Assembly (NCBI RefSeq): GCF_012584445.1
Contig: NZ_JABAHI010000006.1
Coordinates: 124,001-188,000, forward strand
DNA from: Olsenella sp. KGMB02461
GTDB lineage: Bacteria; Actinomycetota; Coriobacteriia; Coriobacteriales; Atopobiaceae
Direction: 5' to 3'
DNA: 64,000 nucleotides
The translations under genes were made by a program, and so were the position numbers. The notes under the pieces are model-generated. The model was not told the DNA's origin, made no database searches, and worked only from the letters and a program-made list of their open reading frames with translations. Shown in pieces: positions 13,043 through 16,432 of the stretch; the stretch's first letter is position 1, and every line of letters begins with the position of its first letter.

Positions 13043-13087
13043 AGGCTCTGTCCACAAGTTATCAAGGCTTGTGAACAGAGCCTTTAA
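13043..13087 (+). terminator. Intrinsic terminator after the surface protein gene
   Basis: AGGCTCTGT plus CACAAG (13043-13058) pairs with CTTGTG plus ACAGAGCCT (13068-13083) with one mismatch, then TTAATTA. Confidence 0.7.
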
Positions 13088-13130
13088 TTACAATAAATGG
13101 GAAGCCTATATCTTACAAAGCGGGCCTGCC

Positions 13131-13715
13131 ATGTCTAACATCGTCCTCATCGATTCCCTCGCTCATCCCCTGCCGTTGCCGCAGGACTTATCGCTCACAT
13201 CGCAGCTCATTCGCTATCCAGTGGATGATTGGGAGGACGCCCTTACCCCTTGGCCTGCCCCTGCGCTCTTTGCAGGTGAGCCTCCCTTTGGCGGCCAGGC
13301 AACCTCCACGTTGGCTGCCATCGAACGATCGCTTCCCACCAACGAGCCTGTCGCCCTCTGCGGCTACTCGCTGAGCGGCCTCTTCGCCCTCTGGGCTTTC
13401 ATGTCCAGCGCGCGTTTCTGTGCCGCTGCCAGCCTCTCAGGATCGCTTTGGTATCCCGGCTGGCTGGACTGGCTCACCGCCCATCCTCGCGATCTTTCTG
13501 GGTGCGCAGCGTTTCTCGGCCTGGGCTCCAAAGAAGCCCGAGGTCCTCGCCCTCTCATGCGCACGGTGGATGTAGCTACCGAGAAAACCAAACAACTGCT
13601 GGCAGGCTACGGCGCCAGAACTTTTTTTCGCTCCTTTGCCGGAGGCCATACCCACCACATGGAAGAGCGCCTGAGCTGGGGCTTGGGGCAGCTGGACAGG
13701 TTTTTGAATCGATAG
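13131..13715 (+). CDS. Putative alpha/beta-hydrolase esterase
   Basis: A 194-residue cytoplasmic hydrolase, short for the fold. The nucleophile elbow is LCGYSLSGLFAL with Ser80; the usual second Gly of GxSxG is displaced (GYSLSG), as in a known subgroup of putative esterases. A candidate catalytic His lies in GGHTHH at 171-176. ATG 13131 is chosen because homology starts there; an upstream in-frame ATG at 13071 falls inside the previous terminator. No strong ribosome site is visible. Natural substrate unknown. Confidence 0.7.
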   Translation: MSNIVLIDSLAHPLPLPQDLSLTSQLIRYPVDDWEDALTPWPAPALFAGEPPFGGQATSTLAAIERSLPTNEPVALCGYSLSGLFALWAFMSSARFCAAASLSGSLWYPGWLDWLTAHPRDLSGCAAFLGLGSKEARGPRPLMRTVDVATEKTKQLLAGYGARTFFRSFAGGHTHHMEERLSWGLGQLDRFLNR

Positions 13716-13834
13716 CGCACCAAAATGTGGGCTGCAGACATCAAGCGCTTCTTGGTGAGATTGGCTTTTGAGCGCGTGCTGGGCTTTTTGGGTTCGAACG
13801 CCGGATTGTTCCATAAGTGGCGAACTATTGAGCT

Positions 13835-14047
13835 GGCAACCCGGTTCTTCTCCCTAGGTATGACTGGGTTGCCATAGCCCAGACAGTCGCGCCCTAGGGG
13901 TATGACTGTCTCTTTCGCGATTTGCAGGCTATTTTCCCAGTCCAACCCATAGGGTGTGACTGGATTTTGCTCAACTGGCCCAGTCACACTATGGGGGCAT
14001 GACTGGATGGGTCATGCAAACCCGGTCCTGCCCTATGGGTAGGACCG
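13835..14047. repeat. Array of five related hairpins with CCCTAGGG-type loops
   Basis: Units: A 13835-13873, B 13882-13910, C 13937-13963, D 13980-14006, E 14023-14047. B, C and D have arms GACAGTC/GACTGTC, CCAGTC/GACTGG and CCAGTC/GACTGG, each with exactly 15 loop bases. E has CGGTCCT/AGGACCG with 11. A closes with GGCAACCC/GGGTTGCC and also contains a CCGGTTC/GACTGG pairing. Each loop has a core like CCCTAGGGG, CCCATAGGG or CTATGGGGG, and A-D have TAT, TGT or CAT before the right arm. Arm changes are compensated (GACAGTC/GACTGTC versus CCAGTC/GACTGG), which argues for pairing being kept. Confidence 0.7.
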
Positions 14048-14109
14048 ATCGCAGATCAGAGATCTTTGCATCAAAACCTCTAGATCCTGCATGTTTCCAT
14101 AATCATGCA

Positions 14110-14147
14110 GAACGGGAGTGACCCACCGCAGTGGATCACTCCCGTTC
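14110..14147. other. Hairpin at the 3' side of nfnB
   Basis: A 12-bp perfect stem (14110-14121 with 14136-14147) plus an inner CCAC/GTGG. It lies 36 bp past the nfnB stop and is the likely 3' end structure of nfnAB mRNA, although there is no U run. Confidence 0.55.
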
Positions 14148-14183
14148 TCATAACGCGTGCGTGCGCAAATAGGCTGCTAACGG

Positions 14184-15605
14184 CTACTCGGCGTCGTCGC
14201 CCAAGAGGGTCTTGGCAATGGAGGCAGCAGCCTGCTTGCCGGCGCCCATGGCCAAAATGACGGTAGCGGCGCCGGTGACGATGTCGCCGCCAGCCCAGAC
14301 CTTGGGGTTGGAGGTCTTGCCGTCTTCGTCGGCCTCGATGTAGCCCCACTTGTTGAGGTCTACGTCGGCAGCCATGTTGGCGAAGGGATTGGCATTGGTG
14401 CCGATGGCGGTGACCGCTACGTCGCAGGGAAGCTCGAACTCGCTGCCCTCGACGCGCACCGGACGACGGCGCCCGGACTCGTCGGGCTCGCCCAGCTCCA
14501 TGCGCTCCAGCTTGACCTTGGCCACAAAGCCGTCCTCGCCAGCCTCGAACTCCAGCGGGGAGACGAGCTCCATCACGCGGACGCCCTCCTCCTTGGCGTG
14601 ATGCAGCTCGGCCACACGGGCAGGCATCTCCTTCTCGGTGCGGCGGTAGGCCAAGGTCACGGAGTCGGCGCCTAGGCGCAGCGCGGTGCGGGCGGCGTCC
14701 ATGGCCACATTGCCGCCGCCAAAGACCACGACGTTCTTGCCGTGCTTGATGGGAGTGTCATAGACGGGGAAGTCCATGGCCTTCATGAGGTTCACGCGGG
14801 TGAGGTACTCGTTGGCGCAGAAGACGCCGGGAAGGTTCTCGCCGGGAATGTTCAAGAACTTGGGCAGGCCGGCGCCCACGGCCATGTACATGGCATCGTA
14901 GCCCATGTCGTTGAAGAACTCGTCGCCGTCGTAGAGGCGGCCCACCACGGCGTCGTACTCGAACTTGACGCCCAGGTCCTTGAGGCCGTCGATCTCGCGC
15001 TTGACGATGGCCTTGGGCAGACGGAACTCGGGGATGCCATAGGTAAGCACGCCGCCGCCGGTCTGGAAGGCCTCGTAGACGGTGACGTCGAAGCCTTCGC
15101 GCGCCAGCGCGCCGGCGCAGGCGATGCCAGAGGGGCCAGAACCCACTACGGCCACCTTCTTGCCGTTGGCAGGCTTGCATACGGGAGTGGCGCCTACAGA
15201 CTCGGTCATGTCGCCCAAGAAGCGCTCCAGCTGGCCGATGGCGATGGGATCGTTGCCGGTGCGATTGAGGATGCAGTTGCCCTCGCACTGGTTCTCCTGC
15301 GGGCACACGCGGCCGCAGACGGAGGGAAGCATGTTGGACTCGCGGATGGTGGCCAGGCCGGCCGCGAAATCCTCTTCGCGGATCTGACGGATGAACGTGG
15401 GGATGTCGATGCCCACAGGGCAGCCCTTCACGCACATGGGCTTTTTGCAGTCCAGGCAGCGATTGGCCTCTTCCAAGGCGTCCTCGGTGGTGTAGCCGGT
15501 ATCTACAGGCTCGAAGTTCTTAGCGCGAACCTCGGCAGGCACCTCATTGGCCGGCACGCGCGGATCCTTGTTGTTCGCGCGGTACTTTCCGTTTACGAGT
15601 GGCAT
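14184..15605 (-). CDS. nfnB: NfnB / GltA-like large subunit of NADH-dependent ferredoxin:NADP+ oxidoreductase
   Basis: A 473-residue iron-sulfur flavoprotein. Two N-terminal [4Fe-4S]-type cysteine sets are C50, C53, C58, C62 and C97, C101, C107, C111. An FAD loop GSGPSG is at 155-160, and a second dinucleotide site (VVFGGGNVAMD) follows near residue 280. With the FNR-like NfnA encoded just upstream, it fits the bifurcating transhydrogenase that couples NADH, NADPH and ferredoxin in anaerobes. The sequence alone cannot exclude a related sulfide dehydrogenase or glutamate synthase small subunit, but no GltB is nearby. ATG 15605 (after GAGGGGGG) overlaps the nfnA end by 13 bp. Confidence 0.88.
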   Translation of the reverse strand: MPLVNGKYRANNKDPRVPANEVPAEVRAKNFEPVDTGYTTEDALEEANRCLDCKKPMCVKGCPVGIDIPTFIRQIREEDFAAGLATIRESNMLPSVCGRVCPQENQCEGNCILNRTGNDPIAIGQLERFLGDMTESVGATPVCKPANGKKVAVVGSGPSGIACAGALAREGFDVTVYEAFQTGGGVLTYGIPEFRLPKAIVKREIDGLKDLGVKFEYDAVVGRLYDGDEFFNDMGYDAMYMAVGAGLPKFLNIPGENLPGVFCANEYLTRVNLMKAMDFPVYDTPIKHGKNVVVFGGGNVAMDAARTALRLGADSVTLAYRRTEKEMPARVAELHHAKEEGVRVMELVSPLEFEAGEDGFVAKVKLERMELGEPDESGRRRPVRVEGSEFELPCDVAVTAIGTNANPFANMAADVDLNKWGYIEADEDGKTSNPKVWAGGDIVTGAATVILAMGAGKQAAASIAKTLLGDDAE

Positions 15606-16432
15606 TTGCAACCCCCCTCATGAGCGTGCTCGAGAGCCACGTGCTCCTCGGCACGGTAGGAACCCTGACGAGCGGCCAGGTCGGCCCAGTCCACCTGAGT
15701 GGCATCGAAGTCAGGACCGTCCACGCAGGCGAACTTGGTCTCGCCGCCCACGGTGACGCGGCAGCAGCCGCACATGCCGGTGCCGTCCACCATGATGGGG
15801 TTGAGGCTGGCGGTGATGGGCATGTCGTATTTCTCGCAGGTAAGGGCAGAGAACTTCATCATGGGCACAGGGCCTACGGCAAAGACCTGGTCGATGGCGT
15901 GGTCCTCGCAGAGGCGCTCCAGCGGAGCAGTGACGACGCCCTTCTCGCCCTCAGAGCCGTCGTCGGTGGTGATGATGAGATTCTCCAGCGGCAGCTCGCG
16001 GAACTGCTCGGTCAGGATGAGCAGGTCCTTGGTGCGGGCGCCCATGATGACGGTGACCTTGTTGCCAGCGTCCACCAGAGCACGGGCTACGGGATAGGCG
16101 ATGGCCAGGCCAACGCCGCCGCCAATGACGCACCAGTTGCCCGGCTTCATCTCGGTGGGCTGACCCAGAGGACCGGTGACATCCAGGATGGAGTCGCCTG
16201 CCTGAAGCTGAGACAAGTCCTCGGTGGTCTTGCCAATGACCATGAAGATGAACTCGATCCAGCCCTCCTCAGGATTCCAGTCTGCGAAGGTGAAGGGCAC
16301 GCGCTCGCCGTGCTCATCGGTGCGCACCATCAAAAATTGGCCGGCGTGAGCCTTCTTGGCCATTTGCGGCGCATGCACGCGGAACTTAAACACCTTCTCC
16401 GAGTACTGCGTCTTTTCGAGGATTTCGAACAT
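15593..16432 (-). CDS. nfnA: NfnA / ferredoxin-NADP+ reductase-like small subunit
   Basis: A 279-residue FAD/NAD(P)-binding protein of the dihydroorotate dehydrogenase electron-transfer (PyrK-like) type. The N-terminal beta-barrel would bind FAD (VPFTFADW), the middle has the nucleotide loop VIGGGVGLAIAYP, and the C-terminal [2Fe-2S] cysteines are C221, C223/C224 and C236. The C-terminus has extra Cys and His (HAHEGGCKCHS). ATG 16432 follows GAGGAGATTGC. The upstream leader holds a possible attenuator. It forms an operon with nfnB. Confidence 0.88.
   Translation of the reverse strand: MFEILEKTQYSEKVFKFRVHAPQMAKKAHAGQFLMVRTDEHGERVPFTFADWNPEEGWIEFIFMVIGKTTEDLSQLQAGDSILDVTGPLGQPTEMKPGNWCVIGGGVGLAIAYPVARALVDAGNKVTVIMGARTKDLLILTEQFRELPLENLIITTDDGSEGEKGVVTAPLERLCEDHAIDQVFAVGPVPMMKFSALTCEKYDMPITASLNPIMVDGTGMCGCCRVTVGGETKFACVDGPDFDATQVDWADLAARQGSYRAEEHVALEHAHEGGCKCHS

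Follow-up and report, generated by a model that had tools for sequence, protein, structure and literature searches.

A low-copy family of extragenic hairpin repeats, probably old and decaying, between convergent genes of Olsenella sp. KGMB02461 and a congener

REPs are palindromes of 20-40 bp that are mostly intergenic and lie predominantly between unidirectional and convergent genes (PMC3733652). Their copy numbers are usually above 100 and they are associated with RAYT (PMC2817692). At least one REP family sits in blocks at few loci (PMC3733652). A group of hairpins in Olsenella sp. KGMB02461, denoted array A, invites comparison with these elements. It occupies positions 13834-14050 of the window, the term used here for the whole 64,000-nt stretch of DNA that was analysed. 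Together with a second array (array B), it probably represents a low-copy, old, and decaying family of extragenic palindromic repeats that is REP/BIME-like in shape and place, a reading given a probability of roughly 0.6.

Array A consists of five near-palindromic units of 27 nt on the forward strand (13841-14048), which align without gaps (Table 1). Start-to-start distances are 42, 54, 43, and 42 bp, with spacers of 15-27 bp, and the run of five consecutive hairpins 42-54 bp apart given in the preliminary description is therefore real. Each 27-nt unit offers 12 possible pairs that close a 3-nt loop. Read as 31-mers, the units have arms of six (CCAGTC/GACTGG and variants), two positions that sometimes pair, an inner stem of at most four pairs, and the 3-nt loop. 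The outer six pairs are present in nearly all units, and most units of 27-31 nt form 8-11 of the 12 pairs. A loop of 15 bases had been claimed for three hairpins; the geometry is correct but the count is not, as 6 + 15 + 6 fits all five when G-U pairs and one end mismatch are allowed. The further claim of a CCCTAGGG-like core throughout is roughly right, since the two central pairs of the inner stem form in all five units while its outer pairs vary. All five score higher on the forward strand.

Table 1. Features of the array A locus, in window coordinates.
Feature	Position	Strand	Description
Putative esterase (alpha/beta hydrolase)	13071..13715	+	under Pfam cut-off
Unit 1	13834..13874; 27-mer core 13841-13867	+	outer stem extended, TGGCAACC...GGTTGCCA; left half common to both species, right half replaced in congener
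Unit 2	13883..13909	+	ACAGTC-N15-GACTGT; missing in congener
Unit 3	13937..13963	+	CCAGTC-N15-GACTGG; missing in congener
Unit 4	13980..14006	+	CCAGTC-N15-GACTGG; right arm and flank joined to unit 1 left half in congener
Unit 5	14022..14048	+	CCGGTC-N15-GACCGA; most stable small hairpin, 11 bp, loop of 3
Large hairpin, ~18-20 bp	14109..14148	-	adjoins gltA stop; unrelated to array A; without clear U-tract
gltA-type NADPH-dependent oxidoreductase	14184..15611	-	Fer4_20 and Pyr_redox_2

The flanking genes converge on the array, as originally reported. No relative of the esterase protein was found when it was used as a query against genome contigs. On the other side, the large hairpin next to the gltA stop is probably the 3' end of the gltA transcript. 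It is very long, whereas an ordinary terminator stands there in most sampled genomes of other genera. A terminator scan of positions 13600-14300 returned no consensus terminator and no U-tract on any unit of array A. Comparison with the congener over positions 13100-14350 shows that identity shifts abruptly at the array, from 78-90% on the esterase side to ~96% on the gltA side, non-coding sequence included. This step is possibly the border of a recombination tract.

The array A region folds far better than its shuffles, with z of -6.0 on the forward strand and -5.5 on the reverse strand and none of 200 shuffles as good on either; folded as DNA, z is -5.6. Taken singly, units 1, 2, and 5 outdo their shuffles by a wide margin; for unit 3 the advantage is clear and for unit 4 weak. 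Because each unit is nearly palindromic, folding does not tell one strand from the other, or RNA from DNA. Palindromicity alone is not rare in the window, as a cluster of five within 230 bp appears in 3 of 30 shuffles at the threshold used. A direct-repeat family of four members was reached in none of 300 shuffles and in 3 of 260 window tiles, which makes it rare, not unique. Unit-to-unit similarity was dropped as a sole test of significance, four copies being reached in those tiles.

The second array was found with a covariance model, R1, trained solely on array A of both species and searched against two genomes of the genus. In the congener, it gave three matches within 160 bp at 110.5-110.7 kb (E 0.019, 1.2, and 1.8). 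These mark array B, which lies between convergent genes for a transaldolase/fructose-6-phosphate aldolase (TAL_FSA) and an Nramp transporter. It contains four units, u1-u4, with the 31-nt geometry of array A, and u2 is without its left half. The corresponding spacer of KGMB02461 holds two decayed units only, u3' and u4'. At the end of u4' (C12, 3' end of array B), a 14-bp exact tandem duplication carries TGTGAGCGGGTAGC twice and is missing in the congener. Alignment of the eleven units suggests an ancestral palindrome near ACCCRGTYACACCCNNNGGGTGTRACYGGGT. The motif TTTGC or GCAAA recurs in the spacers of both arrays adjoining the palindromes, which may point to a longer palindrome as the original unit.

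Beyond the two arrays, R1 had one further match in the congener, 3.2 kb from array B. In front of an MgtE/CBS transporter gene, a leader hairpin matches the array model in the congener (C1:113888-113918; L032:7889-7919) and in KGMB02461 (C12:1524839-1524869), with E of 0.015 and 0.057. This R2-like palindrome, 3.2 kb from array B, is conserved in both species. The mgtE leader, without a match in Rfam, is possibly a regulatory leader of an undescribed kind.

The two species differ in copy number at both loci and in opposite directions. Array A has five units in KGMB02461 and two in the congener, whereas array B has two and four, respectively. In the congener, array A begins with a chimaeric unit: its left half is that of unit 1, its right arm and flank are those of unit 4, and the in-register junction has cost 139 bp. 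Units of one array are mostly identical at 15-24 of 31 positions (10-17 of 31 for the rearranged u2), and orthologous units at 25-30 of 31. Divergence inside an array thus far exceeds that between orthologs, which makes the extra units older than the split of the two species and the copy-number differences losses rather than fresh expansion. Both arrays have been contracting. Of the "expanding hairpin family" first suggested, the family stands, with a second array and a copy number that varies by species, and the expansion does not.

Across three clean ortholog comparisons and the chimaeric one, five pairs were broken and one gained by single changes, with no compensatory double change. Drift appears to fit these losses better than selection for hairpins, on small numbers from two congeneric genomes. 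Unit 5 keeps 30 of 31 bases in the congener, equal to the gltA-side flank (96%); it could be constrained, or could simply lie within a recently exchanged tract. The compensated changes of the preliminary description do occur among the units (A-U/G-C and C-G/A-U), but they do not exceed column shuffles (205 of 500 and 63 of 500). Over 11 units, few as these sequences are, the covariation score was reached by 36 of 500 shuffles. No Rfam covariance model matched at its gathering score, the sub-threshold matches being chance ones with E of 0.2 or more, and permissive thresholds brought in only chance eukaryotic miRNA-like matches. With orthologous units losing pairs uncompensated and Rfam silent, a structured RNA under selection appears unsupported on these few sequences. 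The preliminary description had tied its case to relatives in other genomes and to covariation; the former are present in one congener, and the latter is weak.

The hairpin family is confined to two loci, with about seven units per genome, in two genomes of the genus. No array was found in 138 other genomes of the family Atopobiaceae or in 396 genomes sampled across the class, and the KGMB02461 genome has no further sites at usable scores beyond the two loci. Outside the genus, as the context of the matches showed, the model hit lone hairpins resembling terminators, single palindromes located upstream of a gene, and coding sequence, but never an array; one group of these single palindromes precedes a thiM-like gene. 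The whole of array A as a DNA query matched neither phages nor plasmids, and consensus patterns matched neither genome contigs nor viral contigs. A literature search on repeats of this kind in Actinobacteria and Coriobacteriia returned nothing specific.

The region 3' of gltA in 28 other genomes of the family contains no unit of the array A/B family. In most of these genomes gltA ends in one ordinary terminator hairpin, and two genera have unrelated repeats. In one of them (g20), a different array with a ~24-nt unit like GGCGGCNGAGAGGGCTNNRTGCCA occupies the site (L091:2286-2545, L092:2325-2610, and L096:812-1136). It places three to four copies on one strand and then three to five on the other, at spacings of 29, 33, and 52 and with very long inverted arms. 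In ~116 kb sampled from a fourth genome of that genus, the repeat was absent except for borderline matches. In the other (g28), two palindromes of 23-28 nt, CGTTGCAACCTCAGGTTGCAACG, follow gltA 81 bp apart (L102:2359-2467 and L104:2361-2468), with small-loop geometry similar to that of the array A units and unrelated sequence. That genomes of the family repeatedly build lineage-specific hairpin-repeat arrays 3' of convergent or terminal genes, all three arising by one process such as local amplification as transcription insulators, is a very doubtful proposition. Should the unrelated arrays at the gltA 3' position of other genera turn out to be one phenomenon, they would suggest that the ends of converging genes are subject to a shared pressure.

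Several other explanations of arrays A and B deserve weighing. They could be working bidirectional 3'-end structures, in which redundant stem-loops are kept by selection as a group while single units drift. Convergent genes flank both arrays, stable hairpins form on both strands, and the gltA-side hairpin is without a U-tract, so added structure could matter. Even so, this is unlikely, given that the scan placed a terminator U-tract on no unit, that two units suffice in a species, that the pair losses are uncompensated, and that a single ordinary terminator serves gltA in most sampled genomes of other genera. Distinctly unlikely is an array bound by a protein that acts as a dimer or tetramer, either a nucleoid protein or a regulator, in which each near-palindrome of 27-31 bp would be one site. 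The weak similarity of the units to one another (mostly 15-24 of 31 bases), a genome without further sites at usable scores, the break in period between units 2 and 3, and a number of sites that differs between species all speak against it. In its favor are the symmetry of the units as double-stranded DNA, a ~42 bp period equal to about four helical turns, and the palindrome of the mgtE leader near array B in both species.

Classical REP elements mobilised by RAYT, a Y1/HUH transposase, would agree in size, extragenic place, and clustering (PMC2817692; PMC3733652). The transposase family PF01797 has no match in either genome of the genus but does in 5 of 14 control genomes, the units are without the GTAG/CGTC tag, and only two loci are occupied, which leaves this explanation hardly tenable. 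Unrelated palindromes clustered by chance in a G+C-rich spacer have a negligible probability. Clusters of similar size do occur in shuffles, but the units are common in sequence and register and the fold z is -6. Chance is excluded by the second array, which was found independently by a model blind to array B.

In the favored account, that of a low-copy, decaying repeat family, units of ~27-31 bp are clustered head to tail in the spaces between convergent genes and recur about every 42 bp. The family would have reached two loci and multiplied in an ancestor of the genus through an activity that may since have been lost; no RAYT remains. Later shrinkage may have come from recombination or replication slippage between units, favored by the hairpins, together with point decay. 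Convergent genes have neither promoter nor leader in the gap between them, which is probably why an array is tolerated there. Any present role would be secondary; a run of stem-loops in both converging transcripts might conceivably block read-through or protect 3' ends, and at most the array may help end or shield both transcripts. Arrays A and B offer a clean, small example of ageing clusters of extragenic palindromes, in which a comparison of two species reveals in-register loss of units, at one locus from the congener and at the other from KGMB02461, with no transposase left. They also carry a warning that one genome alone can mislead toward an expanding element or a functional RNA.

Among known systems, CRISPR shares with array A its palindromic repeats and regular period. 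The array A repeats, however, are inconstant (mostly 16-22 of 31 identical) and the spacers are only 15-27 bp; no CRISPR array with similar repeats was among the model search matches, and the initial judgement against CRISPR was correct, as the repeats are not near-identical. Tandem or bidirectional terminators between convergent genes are alike in position and in forming stem-loops on both strands, but here the scan shows no U-tracts, the hairpins are several, weak, and divergent, and copy number is unstable. From REPs and BIMEs the arrays differ in having two loci and about seven units per genome instead of more than 100 copies, and in having no GTAG or CGTC end tag; in units and flanks read by eye, only u4 of array B precedes GTAG, and CGTC is on no unit. 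BIME units alternate in orientation, whereas all units of each array score best in one. Because the family departs from the REP pattern in its number of copies, its unit ends, the orientation of its units, and the lack of a transposase, it is not filed as REP; it would instead work like a REP or be the remnant of something akin to one. The likeness to REPs and BIMEs lies in hairpin palindromes within the 20-40 bp range (27-31 nt here) that form regularly spaced clusters (PMC2817692, PMC3733652), and in an extragenic, lineage-specific occurrence between convergent genes with variable copy number.
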